Shown in pieces: positions 1-15,075 of a stretch of 64,000 nt of DNA. Positions within the stretch are counted from its first letter, which is position 1, and each line of letters opens with the position of its first letter. The stretch comes from Brochothrix thermosphacta DSM 20171 = FSL F6-1036 (lineage in GTDB: Bacteria; Bacillota; Bacilli; Lactobacillales; Listeriaceae), in assembly GCF_036884295.1 (NCBI RefSeq), contig NZ_CP145608.1, positions 1,674,001 to 1,738,000 on the forward strand. Direction: 5' to 3'. Under the pieces are notes generated by a model. That model saw only the letters and a list, made by a program, of their open reading frames with translations, ran no database searches and was not told where the DNA came from. A program made the translations under genes and the position numbers.

Positions 1-602
1 ACGTCATTGACTGCTAAAGTTTCACTCGTTATTTTAAGCGTTTGTGAACCATTCACAATTGATAAAGTGGACGTTTTTGTCATTTTGGCAGTCACAGTCA
101 TTGGTGTAACTGGGTAATGGAGATGATGATTAATCGCACCGATTGTTATATTTTCAGCACCATATTTATAAGGGTCAGAACAAAAAAGTGTAAACGTACT
201 GATAATATTGTTCGAACTTCCTTCTACTGTATCCGCTGTTTCAAAGCGTCCATAGTAGGTTGTCGTCGGTTCGTCTTCAAATGAAATAGCGACATCTTCA
301 TCACGATACAAACGAAACATCAACTCTTTAAAATCGCGTTGTAATTCTAACGCATTCTTATTCTGAAGTTTATAAGTGACAGTGATGATACGTGCAGGCA
401 ATCGTTGATTCGTAATAATTGCACCAATTTGTGCTTCTGTACTTTCCAAAACAATGGATGTCATTTCGCGACCTTCAACTTTTAATGTTGTATAACCTTC
501 CAATATATCTTCCAACAAAAATCCATCATAACGCATAGCTGATGTTGGTATATACTTCATTTTTCTAAATGGATCTTTTTTTACATCTTTAAATGTGTAC
601 AT
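1..602 (-). CDS. Distal tail protein (Dit, siphovirus tail family), 3' part outside window
   Basis: The reading frame is open from an ATG at 602 down to the window edge (about 200 codons, no stop), preceded by AGGAGGTGA. The translation begins MYTFKDVKKDPFRKMKYIPT and shows the beta-rich N-terminal half typical of phage distal tail proteins: a ring-forming domain with runs such as LPARIITVTYKLQNK and RLYRDEDVAISFEDEP. Dit caps the tail tube and joins it to the tip and receptor-binding complex. It lies 15 bp downstream of the tape measure gene, the canonical order in siphovirus tail modules and in F-type tailocins. Family assignment rests on position and fold-like pattern, not on a catalytic motif. 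The C-terminus is not visible. Confidence 0.8.
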   Translation of the reverse strand, partial: MYTFKDVKKDPFRKMKYIPTSAMRYDGFLLEDILEGYTTLKVEGREMTSIVLESTEAQIGAIITNQRLPARIITVTYKLQNKNALELQRDFKELMFRLYRDEDVAISFEDEPTTTYYGRFETADTVEGSSNNIISTFTLFCSDPYKYGAENITIGAINHHLHYPVTPMTVTAKMTKTSTLSIVNGSQTLKITSETLAVND

Positions 603-617
603 CTAAAAACTCACCTC

Positions 618-2003
618 CTAAATTTGCATATTGATTTGTGTTTCGCCACCCATCGCATCAGAAATATCTGCAACAAATGCTGTGAAATTTTGTTTGCCAA
701 TATTAACTACGAACTGGGCGGGTTGTGTTGTTGCAGTATTACTTTGACTCGCATCAGCTGTAAACGAAGCACTAATGGAATGGCTCATGCCATTAACATT
801 ACTCATAACGTCGCCAAAACCATTTTGCAAACCTTTATCAAGACCAAACATAATACTTTGACCATTTTCAACGAGTAAACGTTTGTCATATGAAATTGGC
901 CCTTTATGGTCTTTAATCCAATCCCCGATGCCACTAACGAATTTTTTACCCGCTTCCCATGCGGCTTTCAACCCATTAACAAATCCATCAATGATTGCTT
1001 TACCAGCATCAACTAAACTAAATTCTTTTATGATGTTAAACACACCAATCATTTTGTCGATAAAACCAGCTACTTTGTCAACGCCACCTTGGAAAAAACC
1101 AACAATACTATTCCAACAATCGCCTAAAAAGTTTGCCACCGCATTAAATGCTGCGATAGTCTTCGCTTTAATCGTATCCCAATGTCTAATTATTAAACCA
1201 ACCACAATACCGATAGGTCCTCCTAATATAGACAAAAGAGCGCCTCCCCATTTTTTGAAAAAGTCAACAATTGCAGTAAAGATAGCGACTGCTTTTTCTT
1301 TTATTGCCGTCCACAAATTCGAAAGAAATTCGCTAATTTTTTCCCAGTTTTCATATACGAGTATTGCAACTGCAGCTAATGCCATAATTGCAAGGACTGC
1401 TATTCCCATTGGACTAGATACAAGCTTTAGTCCGTCTTTAAAAAGATCAATCGATGCTTTCACAGTCGCTATCGTTTCTGCTACTTTAATCAACACGACA
1501 ACAACTGTCCCAACTGTGAGAAAGGCGGCAACTAAAGCCGTGATAATTGGAATCAACGTTTCACTATGTTCTTGAAAATAACTGAGAAAAACCATGACTG
1601 GTTCCATTAATTTCGGGATATACGAGATGATAACGCCAAACCCTTGATCGATCACCGAGACAATTTGACTAATAACGCTATTTATCTGGGTAACAAGTTC
1701 ATCAAAGGCACCTAAATCAGCAGATTTAAGTGTTTTTGCAATTTCTAAAAAGACATTATTTAACCCATTGTCGATGGCACCCTCGATATCACCCATCGCT
1801 GTTTTAGAACCTTCTGAAATTGAACTGAACACGCCAATCTTATCAAATATTCCTGCGAGTGCTGAACCCATTTCTGCTATTTTTTGTGCTGCACCAAATG
1901 ATACATCAGCTATTTCTTTTGTTTTATCAATGGCTGTTGTAATTCCAGAAACAAAACCATTATTGTCTATATTTAATTCCATGCCTGTTTTATTAGTTCC
2001 CAT
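618..2003 (-). CDS. Tail tape measure protein, short
   Basis: This 461-residue protein sits at the tape-measure position between the tail chaperones and Dit. The N-terminal third is helical. Two strongly hydrophobic blocks follow, at about residues 150-225 and 235-275, with runs such as GTVVVVLIKVAE and LAIMALAAVAILVY. They are followed by amphipathic helical repeats (AIFTAIVDFFKKW, AAFNAVANFLGDCW, IVGFFQGGVDKVAGF) and a Ser/Thr/Gln-rich tail. Tape measure proteins set tail length at very roughly 0.15 nm per residue, so this one implies a short tail near 70 nm (inference). Many siphophage tape measures exceed 600 residues. Short length fits a tailocin or a small phage. The ATG at 2003 has an AGGAAAGGAG ribosome site. 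Confidence 0.82.
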   Translation of the reverse strand: MGTNKTGMELNIDNNGFVSGITTAIDKTKEIADVSFGAAQKIAEMGSALAGIFDKIGVFSSISEGSKTAMGDIEGAIDNGLNNVFLEIAKTLKSADLGAFDELVTQINSVISQIVSVIDQGFGVIISYIPKLMEPVMVFLSYFQEHSETLIPIITALVAAFLTVGTVVVVLIKVAETIATVKASIDLFKDGLKLVSSPMGIAVLAIMALAAVAILVYENWEKISEFLSNLWTAIKEKAVAIFTAIVDFFKKWGGALLSILGGPIGIVVGLIIRHWDTIKAKTIAAFNAVANFLGDCWNSIVGFFQGGVDKVAGFIDKMIGVFNIIKEFSLVDAGKAIIDGFVNGLKAAWEAGKKFVSGIGDWIKDHKGPISYDKRLLVENGQSIMFGLDKGLQNGFGDVMSNVNGMSHSISASFTADASQSNTATTQPAQFVVNIGKQNFTAFVADISDAMGGETQINMQI

Positions 2004-2017
2004 TTTTTTCTCCTTTC

Positions 2018-2311
2018 CTATTTATTCGCTTTCATCATTAAATCTGAAAAGTCGTTATCCTTTAATGCTTCTTCTTCCTGACCTAACACCATTCTTTCAC
2101 GTTTCGCATAGTCATAAAATTTTTCAAATGATGTGTAATACGGCCGCATTTCTTTGCCCATTTTTTTCGTAGCTTTAACTTGTTGTGCTAGCCAAGCGGC
2201 TTTATGCAGCACATAGTCTTCGTCTACCATCTTTAATTGAAATGCCGTCATCTTGAGCGTGTATTCATAAAATGTCATACGCTCAATTTTTTTTAGTTCT
2301 GTCATGTTCAA
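2018..2311 (-). CDS. Tail assembly chaperone, downstream (gpT-like) frame
   Basis: This 97-codon frame begins at a TTG-AAC-ATG with no convincing ribosome site. It is rich in Lys, Tyr and Glu (MRPYYTSFEKFYDY). It lies in the -1 frame relative to the upstream chaperone ORF, and that -1 frame is open without a stop from the GGGAAAG site at 2407-2413 through to the stop at 2018. It is therefore most likely not translated on its own but as the C-terminal part of a frameshift product of about 231 residues (102 from the first ORF plus 129). In phages the long form recruits the tape measure protein while the tail tube assembles. It lies 14 bp upstream of the tape measure gene. Confidence 0.78.
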   Translation of the reverse strand: MNMTELKKIERMTFYEYTLKMTAFQLKMVDEDYVLHKAAWLAQQVKATKKMGKEMRPYYTSFEKFYDYAKRERMVLGQEEEALKDNDFSDLMMKANK

Positions 2312-2364
2312 ATGTCGAAAGCAATTAATAATAATTTGTTCATAGTTTTCGAGTGAATTGAGGA

Positions 2365-2712
2365 TTATTTTGTTTTCATCGCTTTTTTCGTATCTCTGGC
2401 TATTAGCTTTCCCGCGTTGTTACTTTCGATCTCGGCCAAGGTTTCCTCAAATACTTTTTCGATTTTATCACACGATTCTAAATAACTTTCAATATCTTCT
2501 AATGCTGGTCGTTTCGCCTCTGTTGAAGTGGCACAATGCAATACATCAGCTAGCGCTACAATACTACCTGAATGAATTTCAATTAGTTTTGTTGATAATC
2601 CAGTACCAAATTTCATGCCGTTGTTTTCGATAAAAAACTTTTTATCCAATTCACGTACAAACTTAATTCCAAAAATAAACACCTTAACTTCTCCATTAAT
2701 CTTTAACTCCAT
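2365..2712 (-). CDS. Tail assembly chaperone, upstream (gpG-like) frame
   Basis: A 115-residue acidic-to-basic small protein beginning MELKINGEVKVFIFGIKFVR, with ribosome site AAAGGAGGAAT. The N-terminal beta strands and the central NGMKFGTGLSTKL run resemble the tail assembly chaperone family of Gram-positive siphophages. It follows the major tail protein and precedes the gpT-like frame, the invariant order of tail modules. Its last 14 codons overlap a slippery heptamer at codons 101-102. A fraction of ribosomes should slip back one base to make the longer form. Confidence 0.8.
   Translation of the reverse strand: MELKINGEVKVFIFGIKFVRELDKKFFIENNGMKFGTGLSTKLIEIHSGSIVALADVLHCATSTEAKRPALEDIESYLESCDKIEKVFEETLAEIESNNAGKLIARDTKKAMKTK
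2407..2413 (-). other. Programmed -1 frameshift site GGGAAAG
   Basis: On the minus strand the zero-frame codons read GCG GGA AAG, i.e. the heptamer G_GGA_AAG, the same heptamer used in the lambda G/GT frameshift. The -1 frame is open from here into the downstream chaperone ORF. Confidence 0.8.
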
Positions 2713-2730
2713 TACAATTCCTCCTTTAGT

Positions 2731-2760
2731 AATAAAAAGAAGCTAGGTTTCCCTAGCTTC
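2731..2760 (-). terminator. Terminator after the major tail protein gene
   Basis: GAAGCTAGG-TTTC-CCTAGCTTC is a perfect 9-bp stem (2739-2760). In the minus direction it is followed by TTTTTATT. It lies between the major tail protein and chaperone genes and would give more transcript for the abundant tube protein than for the downstream genes. Confidence 0.85.
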
Positions 2761-2793
2761 TACTTGTATAGTTGATATAATTTTATCGATCTG

Positions 2794-3318
2794 TTAATTA
2801 TTATTCCCAGCAGGTTCTTCAGCTTTGACCGTGTCTTTAAACACGTATGACACCACATTCGCTTGTTCCTCAGTCAAAGTTGCATAACCTTTTTGTCCGA
2901 CACCATTAATAGCAAATTCCATTTCTAGTGCTAGACCATCCTCAGAATTGGATGTTTTTGAAAAACTTGAAACATAACCTTGGAAATATGTTGCTTTAAA
3001 TTTATCACTGTTTTTTTCTGTGCCTTTTTCTGCTTTATCAATCTCCCAAATTTCGATAATTTCAGCTGCATCGAAAGCATCATCTAATTCATCAATGTAG
3101 GTATCTCCTTTGGCAATAATCGATGTCGCTGAAAACTCATAAACAATCGGTGCCATATTTTGCAATGGACCGTCCTTGGTCGGAACTGCTTCATTGTCAC
3201 GGCTTTTAGCATTACTATGTTCCGTTTGGAATGCCATCTTCCAAGCTGCCCCATCCTTTTCATTTTTTAAAATACGGTATAATAGAATAACGTCAATTCC
3301 TTTTTTTGCTTCAGTCAT
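2794..3318 (-). CDS. Major tail (tube) protein
   Basis: A 174-residue protein starting MTEAKKGIDVILLYRILK at the ATG at 3318, behind AAGGGAG with good spacing. The frame stays open 28 codons further upstream (to 3402) but without a ribosome site, so the internal ATG is preferred. The pattern is that of TP901-1-like major tail proteins: an N-terminal RILKN strand, then QNMAPIVYEFSATSIIAKGD, EIWEIDKAEKG, ATYFQGYVSSF and GYATLTEEQ. It forms the tail tube. LmaA of the Listeria monocin locus belongs to this class and holds the same position after an ArpU-like gene. A strong terminator follows. Confidence 0.82.
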   Translation of the reverse strand: MTEAKKGIDVILLYRILKNEKDGAAWKMAFQTEHSNAKSRDNEAVPTKDGPLQNMAPIVYEFSATSIIAKGDTYIDELDDAFDAAEIIEIWEIDKAEKGTEKNSDKFKATYFQGYVSSFSKTSNSEDGLALEMEFAINGVGQKGYATLTEEQANVVSYVFKDTVKAEEPAGNNN

Positions 3319-3517
3319 TTTTAAAATCTCCCTTTTAATAGTTTTTTTAATCTTTGTTTGCTTCGCTTGCTCTGCAGTGGCAGCGTTGCTGAAATATTTC
3401 ATTTTTCATTAACATGTTAACAATTTACTGCGCATTTGATACCAACGTGTTTTATTTAACGTCCACAACAATCATAAACGGACGAGCAAGTCTTAAAGAT
3501 GTTCCCCAGTAAAATTA

Positions 3518-3676
3518 AGCTTTTCTGCTGTTTGAAACTCTTAACTACTATCATCTTAACACCTTATTTCACCTAAAAAGTGTCTTCTTAATACCTTGAT
3601 AGTACGGAGAAAATTCATTGCTTTTTCTTTCTTATTTTATCCCATAAAAAAGATACTAGCTCTTTTGCTGGTATCT
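3518..3676. repeat. Direct repeat copy 1 (about 160 bp)
   Basis: Nearly identical to 3685-3844, offset 167 bp, with only a few mismatches. Both begin AGCTTTTCTGCTGTTTGAAA and end with the hairpin AGATACTAGC...GCTGGTATCT. Confidence 0.93.
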
Positions 3677-3678
3677 TC
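3646..3678 (-). terminator. Terminator in repeat copy 1
   Basis: Same hairpin as at 3812-3845, again followed by a T-run in the minus direction. It gives a second stop signal before the tail operon. Confidence 0.8.
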
Positions 3679-3684
3679 ATCGAT

Positions 3685-3844
3685 AGCTTTTCTGCTGTTT
3701 GAAACTCTTAACTACTATCATCTTAACACCTTATTTCACCTAAAAAGTGTCTTCTTAATACCTCGATAATACGGAGAAAATTCGTTGCTTTTCCTTTCTT
3801 ATTTTATCCCATAAAAAAAGATACTAGCTCTTTTGCTGGTATCT
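3685..3844. repeat. Direct repeat copy 2 (about 160 bp)
   Basis: Second copy of the 3518-3676 unit, with differences such as CTCGATAAT for CTTGATAGT and one extra A before the hairpin. The tandem arrangement implies a recent local duplication. Confidence 0.93.
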
Positions 3845-3845
3845 C
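3812..3845 (-). terminator. Terminator in repeat copy 2
   Basis: Minus-strand stem AGATACCAGC...GCTAGTATCT followed by TTTTTTAT, directly downstream of the ArpU-like gene. Confidence 0.8.
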
Positions 3846-3866
3846 GTTAATAGAAATTTTGAACGT

Positions 3867-4358
3867 CTATGTTGTTACTCTTTGTTCAATTCCTAATTCA
3901 CATGCAAAGTCAGTCACTGCCATATTCAGTTCCATATGGTATGTAGTGTGCTCAATCATTAATTTTTCCATTATCCTAGTTTTATTAGACCCAATAATAA
4001 ACTTGTCCACGAATATAACTTTACGTCGTTCTCTTCGTTCAGGATCCAAAACACATTCGATTCGTTCCAATCCCTGATTGATTTTTTTTACAAAGTATTC
4101 CATCTTTTCAAATTTCTCAATATTATCTAATGCTGCACTTTCTGTTGTACTATGGAAGTCATTACCATATGTTGGAGGCACAATAGAATAACTTGCGGTC
4201 ACCTTTGGAGCTGCTCTCACACCTGCTTTTATGGCTTCTTGTTTATAGGCGGTTATAAGTAATTCCACATTTTTGACAGTTTTCCTCATACTTAAATCAC
4301 TTGGTCGTACTTCTTTGTAGTTTTCTAATTCAATCATTAAGTTGTCTTGTGTGCTCAT
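3867..4358 (-). CDS. ArpU/RinA-like phage late transcription activator
   Basis: 163 residues from an ATG with AAAGGAGG just upstream. The C-terminal third (ERRKVIFVDKFIIGS, KTRIMEKLMIEHTTYHMELN) resembles the sigma-region-4-like helix-turn-helix of ArpU-type regulators, which turn on late phage genes. Its location immediately upstream of the tail module, with terminators between, suggests it activates the tail operon from a promoter in 3419-3517. In the Listeria monocin locus an ArpU-like lma gene occupies this position. The assignment comes from the HTH-like pattern and context, so moderate confidence. Confidence 0.65.
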   Translation of the reverse strand: MSTQDNLMIELENYKEVRPSDLSMRKTVKNVELLITAYKQEAIKAGVRAAPKVTASYSIVPPTYGNDFHSTTESAALDNIEKFEKMEYFVKKINQGLERIECVLDPERRERRKVIFVDKFIIGSNKTRIMEKLMIEHTTYHMELNMAVTDFACELGIEQRVTT

Positions 4359-4405
4359 TCATTGTCCTCCTTTTATTAGTAAAGTTAGTTTTTATAACAC
4401 TTATT

Positions 4406-4639
4406 TCATTGACAAGTAATCTCTAACAATGCGACATATAAAAACTCAACACTCGTTTCATGATGTTTATAGCGTTGATAGGAATAATGATCTCTATCTG
4501 CGCTTGATCGCACTTGTTTTTCCGTCTTTATTTTAATTACTTCATGACCACGAAGACGTGCATCAGCTAGCTTTTTAACAAATTCGATTTTATTTTTATT
4601 TTTAATGTAATAACGATTATTGATCATCGTTTTATTCAT
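4406..4639 (-). CDS. Small basic phage early protein, unknown function
   Basis: 77 residues, lysine/arginine-rich (RYYIKNKNKIEFVKKLADARLRGHEVIKIKTEKQVR), ending in LLEITCQ. It has a good ribosome site (AGGAGAG) before the ATG at 4639 and lies 47 bp upstream of the ArpU-like gene, so the two are probably co-transcribed. I do not recognise a domain. Position and charge suggest a small regulatory or nucleic-acid-binding protein (inference). Confidence 0.6.
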   Translation of the reverse strand: MNKTMINNRYYIKNKNKIEFVKKLADARLRGHEVIKIKTEKQVRSSADRDHYSYQRYKHHETSVEFLYVALLEITCQ

Positions 4640-4707
4640 TCGCCACTCTCCTCTGATTTTGTAAAGTTAATGAAAACGTTAGTGCTAAATAAACACACCA
4701 CACCACA

Positions 4708-4812
4708 TTACTTACCTTTTTTTACTAAATAAATATTTCCAATTAATAAAGCCGTTGTAGATATAATTGTGAAAAATAGTACCAATAATGAAAATTTTAA
4801 AATAACTGTCAC
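4708..4812 (-). CDS. Possible 34-residue single-pass membrane peptide
   Basis: A GTG-started frame encodes VTVILKFSLLVLFFTIISTT followed by ALLIGNIYLVKKGK: one hydrophobic helix with a basic C-terminal tail. The ribosome site is poor (GGAG only one base before the GTG). It lies between the Cro-like gene and the 77-residue gene, where prophages often carry tiny membrane proteins. An overlapping frame from ATG at 4824 is also open, so coding is uncertain. Confidence 0.3.
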   Translation of the reverse strand: MTVILKFSLLVLFFTIISTTALLIGNIYLVKKGK

Positions 4813-4881
4813 GCTCCATTTCTTATTTATTCTTAAAACAAATTTTTAACTTTAGATTCTATCTTATCTCACACCACGAAT

Positions 4882-4896
4882 ATGATTTAAAATCAT
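4882..4896. promoter_or_regulatory. Repressor operator-like palindrome (site A)
   Basis: ATGATTTAAAATCAT, 7-bp arms around a central base. It lies between the Cro-like gene and the genes downstream of it, so it may control a second minus-strand promoter. Confidence 0.65.
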
Positions 4897-4916
4897 ATCC
4901 AACGTGCAAAAACACC

Positions 4917-5114
4917 TTATTCTCTCTTAATACCAAGTATTTCATCAGATGTAACATTAAAATAAAGACATAATTTAACTATATTTTCAGCATTCATTGA
5001 TAGTGGATCTTTTTCCCAGTTGCTGATTGATGTCTGTGTTGTATCAATTTCTCTCGCTAAGGCTCGTTGAGACATCTTTCCATTTTTAGCTCGCAACTCT
5101 GCGATTGTTATCAA
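4917..5114 (-). CDS. Cro-like XRE-family regulator
   Basis: 65 residues that are almost wholly one helix-turn-helix domain: SQRALAREIDTTQTSISNWEK is the recognition region, followed by the dimerisation-type end LYFNVTSDEILGIKRE. The start is a TTG at 5114, with AGGAGG seven bases upstream. It is divergent from the CI-like repressor and shares with it an operator region containing three palindromes. Family knowledge: such proteins oppose the maintenance repressor. Whether it does so here is inferred. Confidence 0.8.
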   Translation of the reverse strand: MITIAELRAKNGKMSQRALAREIDTTQTSISNWEKDPLSMNAENIVKLCLYFNVTSDEILGIKRE

Positions 5115-5141
5115 CCTGCCACCTCCTGGTCATATCTCTAT

Positions 5142-5168
5142 GTTATATGATTTAAAATCACGTGTCAA
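5142..5168 (-). promoter_or_regulatory. Promoter of the Cro-like gene with operator B inside
   Basis: Minus-strand TTGACA (5163-5168) and TATAAC (5142-5147) flank the palindrome ATGATTTAAAATCA (5147-5160), so repressor binding would block polymerase. Confidence 0.65.
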
Positions 5169-5177
5169 TAAATATAT

Positions 5178-5192
5178 ATGATTTATTATCAT
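5178..5192. promoter_or_regulatory. Operator-like palindrome (site C)
   Basis: ATGATTTATTATCAT, a variant of the same 15-mer as sites A, B and D, between the two divergent promoters. Confidence 0.6.
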
Positions 5193-5246
5193 GCCACTAT
5201 CTTATAACTGTCTAGATTATTATTTAATACATTATAAAACAACAAC

Positions 5247-5275
5247 TTGATTTAAAATCATACCAATGATATATT
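5247..5275 (+). promoter_or_regulatory. Repressor promoter with operator D over the -35
   Basis: TTGATT (5247-5252), a 17-bp spacer, then TATATT (5270-5275). The palindrome TTGATTTAAAATCAT (5247-5261) covers the -35, giving negative autoregulation. Confidence 0.65.
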
Positions 5276-5298
5276 ATACTTATCAAAGGGGTGTTGAA

Positions 5299-5964
5299 AT
5301 GAGGACTTTAGGAAGTCGCATAAAATTTTTAAGAGAAAAAAAACATTTAACTCAAACAGAATTGGCTGAAAAAGTTGGCGCAAAAACTTATACTACTATA
5401 TCTAAATGGGAAAGTGACGAAAATTTCCCAAAAGGAAAGGATTTAAAAATCCTAGCAGAATTGTTTGGTGTTTCAGCAGATTTTCTCTTAGGAATAGAAC
5501 CATCCGTTCAAACTTTCCAAACATCTGAATGCCATGATACAGATATTGAACTTCCTCTATATGGTGACGTTGCTGCTGGGGCTCTAGCAGAGTTAGAAAG
5601 TATTGATGTATGGGATGTCAAAACCGTAAAATTACCAAAATTTTTGCTTCCACAATCGATGTTATCCGATAAGTTATTTGCTATGCATGTTAATGGAGAT
5701 TCAATGGATAAAATAATTCCTAACGGTTCATTAATTGTTGTAAAACCAATTGAACAATCGCTCTATAATGATGGTGATATTGTTGTTTTCAGCTATAATG
5801 GTGAATATTCATTAAAAAGATATCGTCCCAATGCCATGGAAGGTTTTGTATTATTTGAAGCTGATTCAATTAATCCTGATTTCAAAAATATCCCCATTAG
5901 TAAAAGTGAGTTATTTGAAGCGAATATGTATGGTAAAGTCGTTTTTTGTGGGATAACATTTTAA
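5299..5964 (+). CDS. CI/LexA-type self-cleaving repressor
   Basis: 221 residues. An N-terminal XRE helix-turn-helix (about residues 6-63, KKHLTQTELAEKVGAKTYTTISKWE) is followed by a peptidase S24 domain. The likely autocleavage bond is Ala93-Gly94 in VAAGALAE. The catalytic serine is Ser135 in NGDSMDK and the lysine is Lys173 in YSLKRY. This predicts RecA-triggered self-cleavage after DNA damage, releasing the divergent tail cluster. The open frame extends 11 codons upstream to 5266, but the -10 box lies there; ATG at 5299 follows AAAGGGGTG. It is the only plus-strand gene of the cluster and borders a housekeeping exporter gene, with no integrase. Confidence 0.88.
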   Translation: MRTLGSRIKFLREKKHLTQTELAEKVGAKTYTTISKWESDENFPKGKDLKILAELFGVSADFLLGIEPSVQTFQTSECHDTDIELPLYGDVAAGALAELESIDVWDVKTVKLPKFLLPQSMLSDKLFAMHVNGDSMDKIIPNGSLIVVKPIEQSLYNDGDIVVFSYNGEYSLKRYRPNAMEGFVLFEADSINPDFKNIPISKSELFEANMYGKVVFCGITF

Positions 5965-6091: not shown

Positions 6092-6721
6092 TTAAAAAAA
6101 TGCTTTTACTGACATATAAAATTCATATAAAAAGTAACAAGCAAAGCCTAACAATAAAATACCAGCTACAATCGAGCTCCATTTTATAGCTTTACGATTC
6201 ATAATTTTTCTTGTTAATGAAACAATGGACAGTAAACTAACATCATGTAACAATATACCACTCAAAATCCCTAATGCAACAATAAAAAATTGACTGTTAC
6301 TCTTTGTGTAGGAATCAGTTAATACAGTTCCAAATACTGTAACCCAAAAAACGAGGTTCCCTGGTGATACAGCTACAATAAGTCCATTTCGATATGTTTT
6401 AAAGAATGATTTATTTGTTTTTTCACCTGCTAAATTAATATCCTTATTCGCATTTTTGATAGAATCGTAGGCGATAAAAACCAGAAATACAGCTCCTATC
6501 AACCATAATGGGCTTTGAATATAAGGTAAAGAAAGAATATTAGCAAATCCTAAATAAAGTGCAATTATTAGTGCCACATCAATTGTCATACCACCAATAC
6601 CAACGGCCCATCCGTGTATAAATCCATTTTTCAAAGTCTGTTTTGTCATTTCTACACTTATCGCCCCCACCGGCATTGCGATTACCAAACCCACTAGTAA
6701 AGACGTAAAATAATTTTCCAT
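6092..6721 (-). CDS. LysE/RhtB-family amino acid exporter
   Basis: 209 residues with about six hydrophobic segments. The N-terminal signature is GLVIAMPVGAISVEMTKQTL followed by GFIHGWAVGIGG, and the central VAVSPGNLVFWVTVFG is typical of the LysE/RhtB superfamily (inner-membrane efflux of amino acids or related metabolites). Length matches the family norm of about 205. The ribosome site is TAAGGAGGAAT. The substrate cannot be told from sequence. It is a single-gene unit next to the phage-derived cluster and marks the start of ordinary chromosome. Confidence 0.88.
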   Translation of the reverse strand: MENYFTSLLVGLVIAMPVGAISVEMTKQTLKNGFIHGWAVGIGGMTIDVALIIALYLGFANILSLPYIQSPLWLIGAVFLVFIAYDSIKNANKDINLAGEKTNKSFFKTYRNGLIVAVSPGNLVFWVTVFGTVLTDSYTKSNSQFFIVALGILSGILLHDVSLLSIVSLTRKIMNRKAIKWSSIVAGILLLGFACYFLYEFYMSVKAFF

Positions 6722-7594: not shown

Positions 7595-8095
7595 ATGTTT
7601 AATTGGTTAAGAAGCAGTAAGATTGCAATGCCGATACTAACAGTTTTACGTGTCTATCTTGGAGTACAATGGTTCACATCTGGCTTCCACAAAATTTTTG
7701 GTGATACACCATTTGATGCCGGTGGTTTTATAGGTAATATTGTTAAAAATCCAGTTGTCGGACCTGAAGGCAACCAACTTTATCCAGCATACACTTGGTT
7801 TATGGAAACTTTTGCAGTAGGTAATAGTCAATTTTTCAGTTTCCTTGTAATGTGGGGCGAATTATTAATCGGCTTAGGTTTAATTGTTGGTTTATTCACA
7901 TCAACAGCTGCCTTTTTCGGAATCGTCATGAATTTCCTTTTCCTATTCGGTGGTACAGTTTCAGTAAATCCCCTCTATTTAATCCTCGGACTCCTCGTTT
8001 TAGTTGGCGGACGTAACTCAGGTACAATTGGCCTTGACTTCTACTTCCGCAAATATGTTTCACCTAAGTTGTTTAAACAAAGACAACATCGTTAA
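7595..8095 (+). CDS. DoxX-family membrane protein
   Basis: 166 residues from ATG at 7595 (GGAGG eight bases upstream; the frame extends 5 codons further but over the ribosome site). Four hydrophobic helices. The N-terminal VLRVYLGVQWFTSGFHKIFG and the GELLIGLGLIVGLF segment are DoxX/DoxD-like. Members are small integral membrane proteins, in some bacteria tied to thiol or redox stress. The function here is not shown. It is monocistronic, with its own terminator and a palindromic operator-like site. Confidence 0.82.
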   Translation: MFNWLRSSKIAMPILTVLRVYLGVQWFTSGFHKIFGDTPFDAGGFIGNIVKNPVVGPEGNQLYPAYTWFMETFAVGNSQFFSFLVMWGELLIGLGLIVGLFTSTAAFFGIVMNFLFLFGGTVSVNPLYLILGLLVLVGGRNSGTIGLDFYFRKYVSPKLFKQRQHR

Positions 8096-8108
8096 TTTTG
8101 ATACAACT

Positions 8109-8137
8109 TAAAAAGAGGCTAATGCCTCTTTTTTTTG
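8109..8137 (+). terminator. Terminator
   Basis: AAAAAGAGGC-TAAT-GCCTCTTTTTTTT after the DoxX gene. Confidence 0.9.
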
Positions 8138-8210
8138 CCTTCAAACAAATTATTTGGTTGTACAGGTAATTGAGTGTACTATTATGGTAATAAATGAATG
8201 AGGTGAACTT

Positions 8211-8813
8211 ATGAAAAAAGCATTAATTATTGGCGGTACAGGTACTATTGGTAGTGCAGTTGCAAAAGCTTTATCTACGACTCACGAGATCTTGATTGCG
8301 TCACGCTCTAGCGAGTACCAAGTTGACTTAGCATCACCTACGAGTATTAAAGCATTGTTTGATAAGGTAGGAACTGTTGATGCAGTTATTATCTCTGCTG
8401 GGGCCGCTCACTTTGGTCCATTAGCTACTATGACTCCTGAGGACAATCTGCTCAGTGCCAATAACAAGTTATTAGGACAAGTAAACACTGTTTTAATTGG
8501 CAAAGATTATGTTGCTGATAATGGTAGCTTCACACTGGTAACAGGGATCATTATGGATGAACCCATAAAAGATGGTGCCTCTGCTGCAATGGCAAATGCT
8601 GGTGTCAAAGCGTTTGCGAAATCTGCTGCGACAGAAATGCCACGTGGTATTCGTATCAATACAGTGAGCCCCACTGTTTTGGATGAATCTTGGTCTATTT
8701 ATAAAGATTATTTTGTCGGTTTTGAAACAGTATCTTCAAACAAAGTTGCTAACGCATTTGTCAAAAGTGTCAACGGTGTTCAAACTGGTCAAAGTTTTAC
8801 AGTTTATCAGTAG
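8211..8813 (+). CDS. Atypical short-chain dehydrogenase (Lin1944-like)
   Basis: 200 residues. The N-terminal GGTGTIGSAVAKAL is a nucleotide-binding glycine-rich loop. VIISAGAAHFG and the C-terminal RGIRINTVSPTV follow the classical SDR layout. The catalytic YxxxK is missing: the position is occupied by AAMANAGVKAFAKS, so Tyr and Lys are both replaced. This matches the Lin1944-like SDR subgroup, which lacks the usual active-site residues and has no settled function. Ribosome site GAGGTGAAC. Single gene with its own terminator. Confidence 0.82.
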   Translation: MKKALIIGGTGTIGSAVAKALSTTHEILIASRSSEYQVDLASPTSIKALFDKVGTVDAVIISAGAAHFGPLATMTPEDNLLSANNKLLGQVNTVLIGKDYVADNGSFTLVTGIIMDEPIKDGASAAMANAGVKAFAKSAATEMPRGIRINTVSPTVLDESWSIYKDYFVGFETVSSNKVANAFVKSVNGVQTGQSFTVYQ

Positions 8814-8864: not shown

Positions 8865-8906
8865 AAAAAACCAGTTATAGAGCTTCGGCTCAACAACTGG
8901 TTTTTT
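8865..8906. terminator. Bidirectional terminator
   Basis: AAAACCAGTT...AACTGGTTTTTT with an inner GAGCTTCGGCTC hairpin, between convergent genes. Confidence 0.88.
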
Positions 8907-8915
8907 GTCAATTAT

Positions 8916-9176
8916 TTATACGCGTGGAATTTTATTACTTAAAATATTACCTGCGTGTTTTTTTTGACTGTTAGCATGCTTTAATTTATCAGGAGTAACA
9001 TCATTACCCTCTTTGTCTAAAATTTTCAATCCATCAATTGTTCCTAATACTTGGCCTCTTATTTCACCTAAGTATGCTTTACGTAATTTGAGTTGCTCTT
9101 TTGTTTCAGCGGGAGTTAAACCCTCTTCTTTCTTTTTCTTTGCTAAGGCATTAATTCGATTCAAATCTACTTTCAT
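8916..9176 (-). CDS. DUF896 / UPF0291 (YnzC-like) small protein
   Basis: 86 residues from ATG at 9176 (AAGGAGCG upstream; the frame continues to 9275 without a ribosome site). The MKVDLNRINALAKKKKEEGL and EQLKLRKAYLGEIRGQ motifs are the DUF896 signature: two helices and a basic tail. In Bacillus, YnzC is SOS-associated, but the function is unresolved. It lies 99 bp downstream of topB, on the same strand. Confidence 0.88.
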   Translation of the reverse strand: MKVDLNRINALAKKKKEEGLTPAETKEQLKLRKAYLGEIRGQVLGTIDGLKILDKEGNDVTPDKLKHANSQKKHAGNILSNKIPRV

Positions 9177-9275
9177 TGTAAATACGCTCCTTTTTTCTTG
9201 AACTCTTTGTCTAAGAATAGCATAATTTAACAACTGATGCCAATTTATAGGTTCAGATTGGTCAAACATTAGCAC

Positions 9276-11393
9276 TTAGCTCTTTTTTACTTTTGGTTTA
9301 AATGTGATGAATTCAAAAGCAACTTTATTTGCATCATCTAAAATAAGCACCGCATTGAATTTTTTACCTTTTTTACTAAGAAAGCCTTTTATTAAGGCTG
9401 TACGTCGTGATTTTAATAACTTACTACACATCGGACGACTGATTTTTTTATTAAGAATTTTTTTGTATATAACGAAGTCACATTTCTCACAGCCATACAC
9501 TTTAAATTTTTCTAAAACAGACGCACCACATGAGGGACAGATTCCTAACGGTTCCTCTGTCATCGGGATAGCAATTTTTTCAGTACCTATTTGTTCAGGT
9601 ACGGTAGCAATGAGATGCTGTATGAAACGTTGAATGCTGCCTAAGAAAGCTTCTTGTGTTCCCGTTTTATCATGGATTTTTTTTAAATAACTTTCCCATT
9701 TAGCGGTCATCTCTGCACTCGAAATTTCGACGCCTACAATTGCTTCACACAATATACTTCCCTTAGCAGTTACCTGCAGTTGATTTGCAGTTACTTCAAT
9801 ATAATCTTGACGCTTTAATGTTTCAAGAATACTTGCTCTCGTTGCTTCAGTTCCAATACCTTCAATTGCTTTTAAAATTGCTTTAGCTTCATCCTCAGCT
9901 GTGCGGCCGATATTCTTCATAGCCGTGATCAATGTCCCTTCAGTGTATGCAGGTGGTGCCTTGGTTTCAGCCTCTTTTTCATAAAGACGACTTTGAACAA
10001 CTTCATTAAGCTCAACAATTGGTAACTTTTCCTCATCTGTTTTTTTCTTAGCTGCTCCGATAATTTCTTTCCATCCTAGCTGTCTAATCATACGTCCCGT
10101 TGTTTTGAAGATTTGTGTATTAACATCCGTCAGTATAATTGTTTCATCATAGATATACGGTTGTGCAAAAATAGCTAGAGTTCGTCGTAATATTAAATGA
10201 TACAATCGTTGCTCCATTGGTCCCAACTTTGCTAGGGCAGCGGCAGTGGGTATTTTTTTTGTTGGGATAATCGCGTAATGTTCCTGAACTTTTGAAGCAT
10301 CAACATGACGTTTTGTTGCATAGTTTTGTGGGTCTTTAATTTCCACACCGGCACGCTCACAATAGCCTTCAAGATTTTTTTTCAAGTAAGCATATTCTGC
10401 TGGCGTAATGTAATGACAATCCGTTCGTGGATACGAGACTAATTTTTTTTCATATAACGTTTGAACAATCTTTAATGTCGTAGCCGGACTAACTTTATAT
10501 AACTTATTGGCTTGACTCTGTATATCAGACAATGAATAAAGACGTGGCGCATATTCCTTTTTTTCTTTTGTTTCCACTTTAGCAATACGAGCAGCTTGTT
10601 CCTGTTGATGAATCACATCGAATCCTTTAAAAAAATCTATCAACTCAGGCAGTGTTTTAAATGTATCTTTATATTTTCCAACATAGGTACCTTGTGCAGC
10701 ATTTACATGAATATATGCTTCAAAATAAGTTTGTGGTTCAAAATTTTCTATTTCTTGTTGACGTTGCCAGATTAAATATAGTGTAGGTGTCTGTACGCGT
10801 CCAATTGAAAAAACACCACTCAAACCTTTTTGTTGTAATAACAGTGTATAAAGTCGACTGATATTCATCCCAATTAGCCAATCACTAATTTGACGTGTTT
10901 GCGCTTCGATGTACGATGAAAAATAATCCTCGCCTGGTCGCAATGATTCAAAACCTTTCCGAATTTCATCATTTTCTAATGAGTTAATCCATAAACGTTT
11001 TGTGGGCTTATGTTCATTTCCACTGACCTTAATAATTGATCGTGCAATATTTTCACCTTCACGATCACTATCTGTCGCCACAATAATTTCATCAGCTTCG
11101 TCAAGGAGTCGTTTAACGATTCGAAATTGTGCGCGTTTATCTTTAGCGACCTTGAATTGATATGACTCAGGAAACATGGGCAACTCATTGAGCGACCACT
11201 TTTTCCATTCCGGTTTATAACTTTCTGGCGCTTGCAATTCAACCAGATGACCATAACCATAAGTGATTGCGACTTCATCTTCAAATAAAGCATCTTTAAT
11301 CAGAAAACCACCTTCAATTTTTTGTTTAGATTTAAAACTGTGGGCATAAGCTTTTGCTTGACTAGGTTTTTCTGCTAGAATTACAATTTTCAT
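9276..11393 (-). CDS. topB: DNA topoisomerase III
   Basis: 705 residues, type IA topoisomerase. The Toprim domain has AEKPSQAKAY at the N-terminus and the metal-binding ATDSDREGE at about 107-114. SIGRVQTPTL lies at about 196-205. The catalytic tyrosine is Tyr321 in VSYPRTDCHYIT. A C-terminal CPSCG...CEKC zinc-finger-like region is followed by a basic tail. It relaxes negative supercoils and decatenates DNA. ATG with AAGGAGA ten bases upstream. Length is normal for Firmicute TopB. Confidence 0.95.
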   Translation of the reverse strand: MKIVILAEKPSQAKAYAHSFKSKQKIEGGFLIKDALFEDEVAITYGYGHLVELQAPESYKPEWKKWSLNELPMFPESYQFKVAKDKRAQFRIVKRLLDEADEIIVATDSDREGENIARSIIKVSGNEHKPTKRLWINSLENDEIRKGFESLRPGEDYFSSYIEAQTRQISDWLIGMNISRLYTLLLQQKGLSGVFSIGRVQTPTLYLIWQRQQEIENFEPQTYFEAYIHVNAAQGTYVGKYKDTFKTLPELIDFFKGFDVIHQQEQAARIAKVETKEKKEYAPRLYSLSDIQSQANKLYKVSPATTLKIVQTLYEKKLVSYPRTDCHYITPAEYAYLKKNLEGYCERAGVEIKDPQNYATKRHVDASKVQEHYAIIPTKKIPTAAALAKLGPMEQRLYHLILRRTLAIFAQPYIYDETIILTDVNTQIFKTTGRMIRQLGWKEIIGAAKKKTDEEKLPIVELNEVVQSRLYEKEAETKAPPAYTEGTLITAMKNIGRTAEDEAKAILKAIEGIGTEATRASILETLKRQDYIEVTANQLQVTAKGSILCEAIVGVEISSAEMTAKWESYLKKIHDKTGTQEAFLGSIQRFIQHLIATVPEQIGTEKIAIPMTEEPLGICPSCGASVLEKFKVYGCEKCDFVIYKKILNKKISRPMCSKLLKSRRTALIKGFLSKKGKKFNAVLILDDANKVAFEFITFKPKVKKS

Positions 11394-11858
11394 CGTCTAC
11401 CAATCTCCTTAGTTTAACTCTCGTCCGCTCTTATTAAATGAGTGTATTCAAATTGTTGATAGTTGATTATTTCTAAATAATCAACTGTATATCTCAAACA
11501 AATATTTTTATTAGCTATGTATTTATTTTTCTTTTTTCACTTCCCTACCATTGTATCATTTCCTAGTGTCAGTGCAAAAACGTAATGTTCAGTTTTTCCA
11601 AGCCTAATCATTTCCAATTTTAAAATTAATATAGATACATTAACCTTAAAAAAAACACAAAAAACTTTCTATCAAAATGATAATAACCCTTTATTTTTAT
11701 CGGATTTAAAGGAAACGCTTACAACGTTGATTTGTCAATGATTTTATTTTTCGAAATTGTCAGTTTTTTTCTAAAAAAAGGTTTTTTTTTTGCATTTATA
11801 GGGTAAAATAAATGTGTAGCACGTAGGGATATTACTATACAATAAAAGGGGATGTTTT
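11394..11858. other. Gene-free divergent intergenic region
   Basis: 465 bp, very AT-rich, between topB (-) and the DUF2187 gene (+). It contains a tight hairpin AGTTGATTATT-TCTA-AATAATCAACT (11461-11486) in the topB leader. No gene is seen. Confidence 0.5.
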
Positions 11859-12083
11859 ATGATGGCATTATCAAGTATTTCTTTTGACAACCGAAGCAAA
11901 CAAGTAGACAAAGAAGTTCCATTTAATATTGGGGATGGCGTATCATTTATCCGAGGTGAAGTAATGTTTAAAGGTACTGTCACTAAAATGTATGATAATT
12001 CCGCACTTATTGAACTATTTGATACTCCAAATTACGAATTTAATAATACTGTATGTAATTTCAAGAGAATGCAGCTATTATAA
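11859..12083 (+). CDS. DUF2187 (YkvS-like) small protein
   Basis: 74 residues. A KOW/SH3-like small beta barrel is suggested by NIGDGVSFIRGEVMFKGTV, then TKMYDNSALIELFDT and CNFKRMQLL, as in DUF2187 proteins. Ribosome site AAGGGGATG before ATG-ATG. Single gene with a strong terminator. Function unknown. Confidence 0.7.
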   Translation: MMALSSISFDNRSKQVDKEVPFNIGDGVSFIRGEVMFKGTVTKMYDNSALIELFDTPNYEFNNTVCNFKRMQLL

Positions 12084-12092
12084 CTAAATATC

Positions 12093-12125
12093 AAAAGTCC
12101 TACAGTCAATTGTAGGACTTTTTTA
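12093..12125 (+). terminator. Terminator
   Basis: AAAAGTCCTACA-GTCAAT-TGTAGGACTTTTTT. Confidence 0.92.
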
Positions 12126-12334
12126 TGTTCTTTTTCTAAATTAAAAATATTAATATACAGCGTTTAGTAAACTTTTTATCAATCCGTCATCCCATTCACA
12201 AGATCAGGATGTTATACATTAAATTGTAACAAAGAGCAGTGTTCACACAGATGTCATATGTCTTACCGTTATAACTGTTATTTTCTGTTACACTTATTGT
12301 AGTAAGATATCAGTTAATGAAGGAGATGTTTTAG

Positions 12335-12565
12335 ATGGAACACGCAACTAAAGTTGGTATTAAAGGTAATTACTATGATATTTCAATTCGAGAAGTGATT
12401 AGTAATATTGCTTTTACCATTGTTTATAATCCCTTAACTATTACAGATATTGATCAGGCAGATGAATGGGTTACTTCTAGCGCTAATGGTAAATGTATTC
12501 ACAAAATTTCGGCTATAGAGCATGATACGCGTAAAAATACACGTCGTATTTTCCTTAAAGAATAG
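12335..12565 (+). CDS. Hypothetical 76-residue protein
   Basis: Starts MEHATKVGIKGNYYDISIRE behind AAGGAGATG and ends RKNTRRIFLKE. Mixed alpha/beta composition, no membrane segment, no motif I recognise. It is an isolated transcription unit: a 200-bp upstream gap, and a strong bidirectional terminator directly downstream. The good ribosome site and terminator make it likely real. Confidence 0.65.
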   Translation: MEHATKVGIKGNYYDISIREVISNIAFTIVYNPLTITDIDQADEWVTSSANGKCIHKISAIEHDTRKNTRRIFLKE

Positions 12566-12579
12566 TAAAATAAGCAATA

Positions 12580-12638
12580 TAAAAATACCAGTAGATAAAA
12601 CACTGTAAAAAGTGAACGATCTACTGGTATTTTTTATA
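12580..12638. terminator. Bidirectional terminator
   Basis: AAAAATACCAGTAGAT ... ATCTACTGGTATTTTTTA, between convergent genes. Confidence 0.9.
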
Positions 12639-12666
12639 TTTTAACGCTCTTTCGTTTTGTATCACT

Positions 12667-13602
12667 TTAATTTCTTTGCGATAAACTATGAGCTGTCATA
12701 CCAAACACAACAACAATTAGCCCTATCCAAGCACTAAATGATGGAACAGCTGAATTTAAAATAAGTAGTCCTAATATAAAAGAAAACACCGCCTCCATTG
12801 ATTGTGTAGCTTCAACGGCAGCCAGCTCTTTCATTCTTCCTTGTGTTAAGTCTGTTGCTTTGAAAAAAAGTAGTGTGGCAATAACACCTGAAAAGAGAGC
12901 TATTATAATTGAATTAGACACTTGTGACATCGAAGGAATACCTGAACGAGTACCTGCAATAATTGATAAAATCAGCCATGTGGGTAAACTGCATAAAGTC
13001 ATTCCTAACACACGCTCAAACACGTTTAGACGACCTTCTGTCACTTCCATCATTTTACGATTACCATAGGGGTAAGCAAATGCCGCGATAATAATTGGTA
13101 AAGTACCTAGCACTATCCCTTTCAATCCAACCGTTGTCGCATGTGATACTTCCATTATAATAATACCTACAATAATAACACCTGACCAACATAATCCTGT
13201 AAGAGGAATCCGACCTTTGACTTTAACAATACCTGTGGCCGTTTGAATTTTTTCATAGAACAGCGGCGACATTAATGCACCGGCTACTATTGTAATCTGC
13301 CAAGTTCCTGCAACCAACCATCCTGGTGAATAATCAGCAGCAAAGCATAATGGTGCATAAAAAAGACCAAACCCAATTTGGCTGTAAATGAACCAAGCAA
13401 AGGGTCGTTTTTTTATTTCTGACCACATCTTTTTAAAACCACTTTTAAATAAAACAAGCAGCAGCAAAAATGGAACCATAAAAAAATAACGTAAAGATGC
13501 ACTCCACATCCAATCACCACCTAAGTCAGACATCAATTGATTGATCACAAATGTAAAAGCAAAAAAGAACGCTGCAATAATACCAATAATAATCGCTCTC
13601 AT
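12667..13602 (-). CDS. DMT-superfamily (EmrE-type) efflux transporter
   Basis: 311 residues with ten hydrophobic helices. The N-terminal IIGIIAAFFFAFTFVINQLM, the central YSPGWLVAGTWQITIVAG and the C-terminal ATQSMEAVFSFILGLLIL are typical of ten-helix drug/metabolite transporters. The substrate is unknown. ATG preceded by GGAGGGGGATT. Single gene, divergent from the YcxB-like gene. Confidence 0.85.
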   Translation of the reverse strand: MRAIIIGIIAAFFFAFTFVINQLMSDLGGDWMWSASLRYFFMVPFLLLLVLFKSGFKKMWSEIKKRPFAWFIYSQIGFGLFYAPLCFAADYSPGWLVAGTWQITIVAGALMSPLFYEKIQTATGIVKVKGRIPLTGLCWSGVIIVGIIIMEVSHATTVGLKGIVLGTLPIIIAAFAYPYGNRKMMEVTEGRLNVFERVLGMTLCSLPTWLILSIIAGTRSGIPSMSQVSNSIIIALFSGVIATLLFFKATDLTQGRMKELAAVEATQSMEAVFSFILGLLILNSAVPSFSAWIGLIVVVFGMTAHSLSQRN

Positions 13603-13726
13603 AATCCCCCTCCAGTCTTCTATTTCTCTATATTATCATAAAATCTTCAGGAGGAATTCCTTTTCTTAATACGAAGTCCATATGCTATAATAATACCAGT
13701 ACAGTTAACAGAAAAGGAGCTTTTGA

Positions 13727-14251
13727 ATGACTGAACACTTTGATATCACAACACATACCTTAATTGCTTACCAAGATCAAAAATTAAGAAACTCTAAAAT
13801 ATTCCTCGCCTTTCGTTGGATATATAGCCTCCTTCTTACGTTCGTAGTGACGATGCTTGCATTTTTATATGACGTGAATTTGGTCGTTATTGGCTGGCTC
13901 GCCTTAGGATTATTTTTAGTTTTTACATTCATCTTTTGTTTTACGCCTTTATTCGCTATGGTATTAACAGGTATCAGTAGAAAAATGACCAAGGTTGAAC
14001 GCTTCCCGGTAACAATCGCATTGACAAAGGAAGGTCTCACTCAAACAATCAATGACCGTGTCCTCTTTATTAATTGGTCCGACTTCAAGCGAATTTATAA
14101 CGACGACGAATACTTTTTTTTAGCTACTAAAAATGATGTTTGTCCTTTACCATTATCAAGCACAGAAAATACAAAGCGTTTGATTTATCAAAATATTAAA
14201 GCAAACGCCCCCAAATGCAAAGGTATCGAAAAGTTAAAGATTAGTAAATAA
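13727..14251 (+). CDS. YcxB-like membrane protein
   Basis: 174 residues. Two transmembrane helices at about 27-50 and 55-85 are followed by a cytoplasmic domain with ALTKEGLTQTINDRVLFINWSDFKRIYND. That is the YcxB-like pattern, a PH-like fold with a strand ending in a Trp before the acidic loop. Ribosome site AAAGGAGC. Function unknown. Confidence 0.72.
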   Translation: MTEHFDITTHTLIAYQDQKLRNSKIFLAFRWIYSLLLTFVVTMLAFLYDVNLVVIGWLALGLFLVFTFIFCFTPLFAMVLTGISRKMTKVERFPVTIALTKEGLTQTINDRVLFINWSDFKRIYNDDEYFFLATKNDVCPLPLSSTENTKRLIYQNIKANAPKCKGIEKLKISK

Positions 14252-14376
14252 AAAATGTTTTTTAAAATAAATTGTTTAGTCTCTATGTACAGGGGTAATA
14301 ATACCATATAGTTATTGAATAACTATACTTTCATATATCTCTCCCCCTATTGAGATAATGAATACCCCTACTCTTG

Positions 14377-14404
14377 GCGACTTTTAAAAAGTCGTCTTTT
14401 TTTG
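14377..14404 (+). terminator. Terminator
   Basis: GGCGACTTTT-AAAAAGTCGTC followed by TTTTTTT, upstream of the Ser/Thr-rich gene. Confidence 0.75.
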
Positions 14405-14434
14405 TTTCATAATGTTATTACAGGAGGAATTTTT

Positions 14435-14926
14435 ATGATAGTAACCCTAATATTAATTGGTCTTACTCTTTTTGCTATTGGATTTTTGTTTATCGTCATA
14501 CGCTTTTTTAACCACAAGCCTAAGAGAAAATTCATTATAACGGCTCTAGTAGGTTTTTTATTAGTTGCTATAGGTGTTTTTCTTACCCCCGGCACTGAGA
14601 CTGACAAACCAACTGAATCAAAAAAAACTACAGAGTCTTCTTCAACCACTCATTCTTCAAATATTGACAGCACTAGCAATTCTCAAACAACTTCAACAGT
14701 TCCTATTCAATCTTCGACAACAACTAGCACTACAACTGAAAATTCACTATCATCTACTAGCAGTTCAAGCAATACAAACACTACACCTGATACAACCGAC
14801 ACGGTAACGAGTACTTCTATCGAGACAACAACTGAATCATCTACTTCTACGACTGAAAGTAGCTCTAGCACTAACGAACAAATAGAAAATGCAACGACTG
14901 ATTCTACACCCGAAGGAACTGAATAA
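14435..14926 (+). CDS. Membrane-anchored Ser/Thr-rich protein
   Basis: 163 residues from ATG at 14435 (AGGAGGAAT upstream). Two hydrophobic helices (about 3-24 and 35-52) flank a short basic loop (NHKPKRK). Then comes a 110-residue disordered domain made almost wholly of Ser, Thr, Asn, Gln, Glu and Pro, ending DSTPEGTE. The topology would put this domain outside the membrane. It looks like a stalk or mucin-like surface segment with no globular domain. No family is recognised. Low-complexity DNA makes phase-variable length plausible (inference). Confidence 0.65.
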   Translation: MIVTLILIGLTLFAIGFLFIVIRFFNHKPKRKFIITALVGFLLVAIGVFLTPGTETDKPTESKKTTESSSTTHSSNIDSTSNSQTTSTVPIQSSTTTSTTTENSLSSTSSSSNTNTTPDTTDTVTSTSIETTTESSTSTTESSSSTNEQIENATTDSTPEGTE

Positions 14927-14956
14927 ATTTTTTCCTCTTTAATCCATTGTTAACTA

Positions 14957-14988
14957 AACAACTGCACATTATGTGGTTGTTTTTTTAT
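14957..14988 (+). terminator. Terminator
   Basis: AACAACTGCACA-TTA-TGTGGTTGTTTTTTT. Confidence 0.85.
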
Positions 14989-15032
14989 GTTTTAATAGGG
15001 TACCTATTCATTGTATACGTATAAATTCAAAT

Positions 15033-15063
15033 GAAAAAACACGCCTTTAAAAAGCGTGTTTGA
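15033..15063 (-). terminator. Terminator after the MarR gene
   Basis: Minus strand AACACGC-TTTTTAAAG-GCGTGTTTTTTC. Confidence 0.85.
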
Positions 15064-15075
15064 AGCCTTACTTTA

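Follow-up and report, generated by a model that had tools for sequence, protein, structure and literature searches.

The stretch of Brochothrix thermosphacta DSM 20171 DNA analysed here (the window; 64,000 bp, positions 1,674,001-1,738,000 of a single contig of 2,564,037 bp) contains in its first 6 kb the right-hand third of a phage-tail locus without head genes. The complete locus covers about 16.1 kb of the chromosome (1,663,847-1,679,964). We consider it probable that, at the level of the species, this locus is an independently domesticated F-type (non-contractile) tailocin. A literature search found no paper tying Brochothrix to tailocins, and such a tailocin would be new for this genus. 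The original prediction of a capsid-free TP901-1-like F-type tailocin was borne out as a candidate by the gene set, the switch, the lysis cassette, selection and exchanged tips, while its assignment to the Listeria lma/ftb element by descent was not.

Gene content of the locus

The tail and lysis genes are located on the minus strand; positions to the left of the window are given for sequence L009 (window position = L009 position - 18,000). The major tail (tube) protein of 174 amino acids (2794-3318) matched TIGR02126, PF06199 and Gp11 of structure 9m7c. We rejected a start at 3402, the mechanical end of the open reading frame (ORF). Because the 9m7c alignment begins at ORF residue 29 and a ribosome-binding-like AAGGGAG precedes the ATG at 3318, the latter is probably the start codon. 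With this start the predicted distance of 548 bp between activator and tail module was exact. The tail assembly chaperone follows with an N-terminal, G-like part of 115 amino acids (2365-2712; PF12363 Phage_TAC_12, phrog_183) and a C-terminal, T-like part (2018-2311; phrog_441 positions 136-236). The frame of the T-like part is open upstream as far as a slippery heptamer, G_GGA_AAG (2413-2407), and by its sequence this part is made as a -1 frameshift fusion. The heptamer, which bears out the frameshift site of the original prediction, is in phase and conserved in the Brochothrix phages NF5 and BtpYZU03 and in the resident prophage of DSM 20171. Next are the tape measure protein of 461 amino acids (618-2003; phrog_58/305) and the distal tail protein Dit (255 amino acids; chromosome 1,673,835-1,674,602, L009 17835-18602), the N-terminal part of which lies in the window (1-602; PF05709/PF22768, phrog_33). 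In phmmer Dit matched Gp15 of 9m8o (3.4e-93) and ORF46 of TP901-1 (4v96; 1.1e-58).

Outside the window the series continues with Tal (L009 17838-15078), the receptor-binding protein RBP1 with BppU_N and propeller domains (13095-15065), a metallophosphoesterase (11972-13159), a second BppU protein (10388-11953), an XhlA-like holin (9971-10195), a phiLC3-type holin (9683-9967), an amidase (8867-9679) and a lysozyme (7847-8686). The solved structures of Gp11, Gp15, Gp16 and Gp17 (9m7c, 9m8o, 9m7n, 9m7x) matched tube, Dit, Tal and RBP1. The set is thus that of a non-contractile tail, i.e. tube, chaperones, tape measure, Dit/Tal tip and receptor binding without a sheath, and it is accompanied by a lysis cassette of its own with two holins, amidase and lysozyme. 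All genes named in the original prediction (repressor, Cro, ArpU, tail protein, chaperones, tape measure and Dit) were present in the order and on the strands it had claimed.

The metallophosphoesterase gene is found in two strains, and in each of them it shares 65 bp with the end of RBP1, read in a different frame (L009 11972-15065). As phrog_7158 couples a BppU-type N-terminus with a metallophosphoesterase, the overlap is possibly a frameshift fusion or the relic of one.

Beyond the lysozyme gene the chromosome continues with msrA, the gene of a 104-amino acid protein, tRNA-Arg(TCT), tig and clpX. The locus is thus bounded by clpX/tRNA-Arg on the left and by doxX and housekeeping genes on the right. 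None of the ORFs from clpX/tRNA-Arg to doxX encodes a terminase, portal, capsid, neck, tail terminator, integrase or replication protein, and the absence of head, integrase and replication genes claimed in the original prediction holds for this whole interval. The leftward extension that it had proposed as a check yielded Tal, receptor-binding proteins, holins and endolysins followed by chromosome. Head genes concealed on this side were excluded, as the 18 kb as far as clpX were read and none was found. The sole Terminase_3 match of the genome, at 303 kb, belongs to a separate NF5-like prophage (about 290-324 kb), which also carries a tail terminator. The locus might accordingly be the tail part of a true prophage or satellite, with heads encoded elsewhere and joined to the tails in trans. 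Yet it has no integrase, replication or packaging gene, so its own DNA would be neither packaged nor moved, and it occupies one genomic context and bears a deletion scar common to the strains (see below). We regard heads in trans as hardly credible.

In the sister genome, the second of the genus and taken to be B. campestris, doxX lies within about 0.8 kb of tig and tRNA-Arg, and the interval is nearly empty; about 20 kb separate tig/tRNA-Arg from doxX in the window strain. The tRNA-Arg site is probably a hot spot of phage integration, because in the strain behind contig L030 a further prophage, which encodes an integrase, separates the tailocin flank from a copy of the 3' end of tRNA-Arg.

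Descent from an NF5-like phage

For the tail genes, the ArpU gene and a small gene of the control region (4406-4639, minus strand; 77 amino acids, phrog_33211), no closer relatives were found than NF5, BtpYZU03 and the resident prophage, and phage matches were exclusively to Brochothrix phages. All three have the gene order of the locus, and their tail genes are about 71-77% identical to its own at the DNA level. In contrast to the locus, they have retained terminase, portal, capsid, neck, tail terminator and replication genes, and NF5 in addition an integrase. The 77-amino acid protein is a homologue of the product of the NF5 gene adjoining rusA, with 71-72% nucleotide identity to prophage and NF5, and is by this similarity a remnant of the early region. 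The tape measure differs as well: NF5-like phages have a protein of 674 amino acids with an N-terminal TMP_3 domain, which is lacking in the locus (alignment gap across the TMP_3 region), and PF20155 was found in the tape measures of prophage and NF5, not in that of the locus. At 0.15 nm per residue the 461-amino acid tape measure would give tails of about 70 nm, compared to about 100 nm for NF5.

The site of the head-gene deletion is marked by a scar upstream of the tube gene. A 39-bp segment (3446-3484, minus strand) is a fossil of an element that NF5-like phages carry in front of their scaffold gene; its identity was 92% to the resident prophage, 90% to BtpYZU03 and 87% to NF5, and in each of them it is located between minor head and scaffold genes. 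The scar was present upstream of the tube gene in all six contigs that extend there. A role of the 39 bp as a structured RNA was rejected, since fold energies matched those of shuffled sequences. By the sequence comparisons the locus derives from an NF5-like temperate phage of Brochothrix. It would have arisen once, in a common ancestor of the B. thermosphacta strains sampled, when the integrase, the early/replication genes and the block from terminase to tail terminator were deleted.

Comparison with the Listeria monocin

The monocin (ftb/lma; M35152) was compared by means of L097, a sequence from a same-family genome assigned to Listeria, in which the genes have the order expected of a monocin. 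Both loci are capsid-free and non-contractile, with a divergent switch and an activator of the ArpU family followed by tube, two chaperones, tape measure, Dit, Tal hub, receptor-binding proteins, holin and endolysin. Both lack integrase, replication and head genes, and both tape measures lack PF20155. Like the Brochothrix locus, the monocin is chromosomal and largely fixed in its host group (PMC7076858, PMC6872733).

On the other hand, the protein families differ. The tube belongs to phrog_238 in the locus and to 1407 in the monocin, and the chaperones to phrog 183/441 versus 2115/7423. Tal of the locus (phrog 1067; 912-937 amino acids) has an M23 domain and in most strains a lysozyme domain as well, whereas that of the monocin (326; 381 amino acids) consists of the hub only. 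The families of the lysis proteins differ, and the receptor-binding proteins of the locus are BppU-anchored, unlike those of the monocin. A tail-terminator-like gene directly precedes the monocin tube gene (phrog_176, E 7e-4, a weak match); the locus has none. The switch of the locus has a single S24 repressor, that of the monocin a CI-like repressor with an adjoining metalloprotease, described as MpaR (PMC6872733). No metalloprotease antirepressor was found in the Brochothrix locus. The chromosomal sites are different too, with tRNA-Arg/msrA/doxX next to the locus and other neighbours next to the monocin of L097. Shared families are limited to that of the activator, the broad Dit family and the tape-measure superfamily, and BLASTP detected a weak similarity of the tape measures and nothing else. 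Common descent with the Listeria monocin was therefore rejected at the level of sequence and family: PHROGs, switch and chromosomal site are different. From the equivalence that the original prediction had proposed, the similar gene order remains. As judged by these comparisons, the two loci are convergent, not orthologous.

F-pyocins, non-contractile tailocins of Gram-negative producers from other phage lineages, were likened to the locus by kind only. The same applies to rhizoviticin, a non-contractile tailocin of a Gram-negative producer from another phage lineage (PMC10811719).

Selection and tip exchange in other strains

Viral contigs were scanned with the tape measure, and seven of the sequences retrieved were 98-99% identical to it; the others were NF5, with 47% identity, and three distant sequences. 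A scan of genome contigs yielded distant tape measures and nothing closer. The seven B. thermosphacta-like contigs have the same headless arrangement at 97-99% identity. They stem from IMG/VR and end at predicted prophage boundaries, so that flanks are visible in some only.

If the locus were a functionless, decaying remnant of an NF5-like prophage, i.e. an old deletion derivative shared by the strains and now eroding, its genes should drift neutrally. This was examined in twelve core genes from up to eight strains, using the synonymous spectrum as a yardstick and leaving aside indels that shift the frame as well as Tal's C-terminal part. Under neutrality about 275 nonsynonymous changes were expected and 77 were observed, corresponding to a pN/pS of 0.28 (95% bootstrap 0.20-0.40). 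Nonsense changes were reduced to 3 from an expected 19.6 (ratio 0.15; Poisson P ~5e-6). With a simpler mutation spectrum the ratios were 0.34 for nonsynonymous and 0.23 for nonsense changes. Thus the core genes are under purifying selection. Because the scar is common to the strains, most of the core variation post-dates the loss of the head genes.

RBP1 showed a different pattern. Residues 1-180 were 96-99% identical, while the remainder was mostly 21-28% identical between types, with a single related pair of types at 63-64%; the eight strains carry five types of tip. Exchange of the modules took place at sharply defined borders and left the reading frames open. The RBP1 tip of L035 gave a 51% match to the 872-amino acid fibre of the resident prophage, therefore tips appear to be traded with phages. 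A conserved base with a swapped tip is the pattern predicted for a weapon with shifting targets. The pN/pS, the deficit of nonsense changes and the RBP1 swaps point to an element kept by selection as a host function with a diversified receptor-binding module.

Two strains with different main RBP1 types contain in addition an intact receptor-binding propeller of 496 amino acids without a BppU anchor, which follows the endolysin and has a ribosome-binding-like site of its own (L064 394-1884, genome G038; contig L066 of G036, start at 2027 of the reverse complement). The two copies are 99% identical to each other and about 30% or less to any RBP1. The propeller may be a spare cassette, a decoy or an extra tip.

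Lesions and the case for decay

Several findings weigh against a functional tailocin. Exchange of receptor-binding modules is known from ordinary phages too. A tail terminator gene is missing from the locus, which leaves the capping of the tube without explanation. In DSM 20171 itself not all structural genes are intact: Tal carries a 4-bp duplication of AAGT with a frameshift after codon 383 and, further on, a TCA>TAA nonsense change. Moreover, six of the eight strains have a lesion in some gene. In L031 the chaperone (homopolymer) and the start of the second BppU protein are affected, in L032 the amidase (nonsense), in L033 ArpU (homopolymer) and the metallophosphoesterase, in L034 the tape measure (nonsense at codon 427), and in L035 tape measure, Tal and amidase; L029 and L030 seem intact over the portion covered. 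Single-base homopolymer indels in the IMG/VR contigs could be sequencing errors, because at least some B. thermosphacta drafts are Ion Torrent data (PMC6180393). The nonsense changes in tape measure, Tal and amidase of three strains, however, are considered firm.

The Tal lesions of DSM 20171 are probably real and a sequencing error is unlikely, because the published assembly is a 660x hybrid of Illumina and Nanopore data (PMC11321008). They leave a product of 383 amino acids and two downstream open frames, so that the hub domain is kept and the enzymatic C-terminal part is cut off. That the break is located after the hub follows from the Pfam coverage of residues 96-338 and the size of the monocin hub, 381 amino acids. 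Since the Listeria monocin manages with a Tal that is the hub domain alone, a hub-only particle may by analogy still be able to assemble. The particle of the window strain may be weakened or inactive, and whether the DSM 20171 copy still makes an active one we would answer with a hesitant no.

A frameshifted tip gene had been named in the original prediction as a sign of decay. It is present in the window strain, but Tal is intact in six of the seven others. The view of a decaying remnant also draws on reports of an incomplete NF5 phage of 18.8 kb in strains CD 337 and EBP 3070 and of an NF5 fraction in TAP 175 (PMC6180393), which plausibly are this locus. Decay does not account for the shortfall of nonsynonymous and nonsense changes described above, nor for receptor-binding modules swapped with frames kept, and the set of genes left is that needed by a tailocin. 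We therefore judge decay to be unlikely.

About as unlikely, in our estimate marginally less so, is a tailocin of a more unusual design that, without its own terminator and tape-measure N-terminus, would use a new control of length and capping or borrow the terminator of a cohabiting NF5-like prophage, the 496-amino acid spare domain serving in some strains as a cassette store or self-protecting decoy. The only tail-terminator match of the DSM 20171 genome is in the resident NF5-like prophage, and NF5 has a terminator as well; the seven other headless contigs have none.

If particles are made, a TP901-1-like tail would have been turned into a bacteriocin a second time in the Listeriaceae, independently of the monocin and convergently with it, and a major meat-spoilage species would possess a weapon of narrow spectrum. 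With its shared scar, phage relatives of solved tail structure, a series of strains with exchanged tips and natural lesions, the locus lends itself well to studying the requirements of head-free killing. Which tail parts are dispensable, e.g. the terminator, the N-terminal domain of the tape measure or the enzymatic part of the hub protein, can be addressed with it.

The control region

In gene content the parts of a stress/SOS-type switch are present, i.e. an S24 repressor, Cro, putative operators and ArpU. The S24 (LexA/CI-type) repressor gene is on the plus strand (5266-5964, likely start 5299; PF01381 and PF00717, phrog_4), and its product has the AAG, GDSMDK and YSLKRY motifs expected for a self-cleaving repressor. 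On the minus strand are the genes of a Cro-like regulator of 65 amino acids (4917-5114; PF01381 HTH_3) and of the late transcriptional activator of the ArpU family (3867-4358; TIGR01637 above cut-off, phrog_248). A palindrome search identified the operator-like sequence TGATTTAAAATCA downstream of cro (4883-4895) and twice in the region between cro and repressor (5148-5260), as exact palindromes at 5148-5160 and 5248-5260 with a degenerate copy at 5176-5191. The three exact copies in the locus compare with none elsewhere in the window and an expectation of 0.54 for matches with at most one mismatch. When the 15-bp form of the palindrome was searched genome-wide with at most one mismatch, three of the five distinct sites were in the locus.

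Between the ArpU and tube genes a 168-bp repeat occurs in two tandem copies (3518-3844, minus strand), which both contain a terminator hairpin (-10.4 kcal/mol, z -4.6) and an element found after the activator gene of BtpYZU03. This is probably the ArpU-dependent late promoter region. The copy number of the repeat is one, two or three depending on the strain, and this variation may tune expression. A scan for sigma-70 promoters was dropped, as it gave 15 matches compared to 13.8 in shuffled sequences.

From this gene content we propose the following mode of action. The S24 repressor would keep the element silent from the repeated operators until DNA damage activates RecA and leads to self-cleavage of the repressor. 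ArpU would then be produced and activate the late operon. Headless tails would be assembled from tube, tape measure, Dit, Tal and BppU-anchored receptor-binding proteins, and holin and endolysins would lyse the producer cell. Which strains the freed tails bind would depend on the receptor-binding module carried at the time; the envelope of these strains would be opened, and thus related strains may be killed.

The same parts could constitute an inducible lysis or helper element not meant for killing, which releases cell contents or supplies tail parts and lysis enzymes to resident prophages. The tail genes of the DSM 20171 prophage have about 71-76% DNA identity to the locus, this prophage has the terminator absent from it, and a regulatory coupling of monocin and prophage was shown in Listeria (PMC6872733). 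Yet pure lysis would not need receptor-binding diversity, the metalloprotease antirepressor is missing, and the operator sites are mostly within the locus. A helper element is thus quite improbable.

A second sequence with 72% identity to the C-terminal part of the repressor was noted at chromosome 2,542,320-2,542,586, likely another S24-regulated element.

Neighbouring genes

At the lysis end, beside msrA, the 104-amino acid protein (L009 6770-7084) has an enterocin A immunity domain (PF08951, 29 bits, cut-off 22.1), which is also encoded in L061 and L064. By this domain it probably confers immunity to class IIa bacteriocins. On the other side, just past the repressor, a gene of a LysE-type transporter (6092-6721) is located within the interval that is missing from the sister species, where its closest match is on a different contig. 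Finally, one strain has an ATPase and HNH pair (L061 5899-8191, genome G037) that matches the PADLOC models PtuA/PDC-M01A and PDC-M01B of a Septu-like defence and is positioned between the att copy of the adjoining prophage and the tailocin flank.

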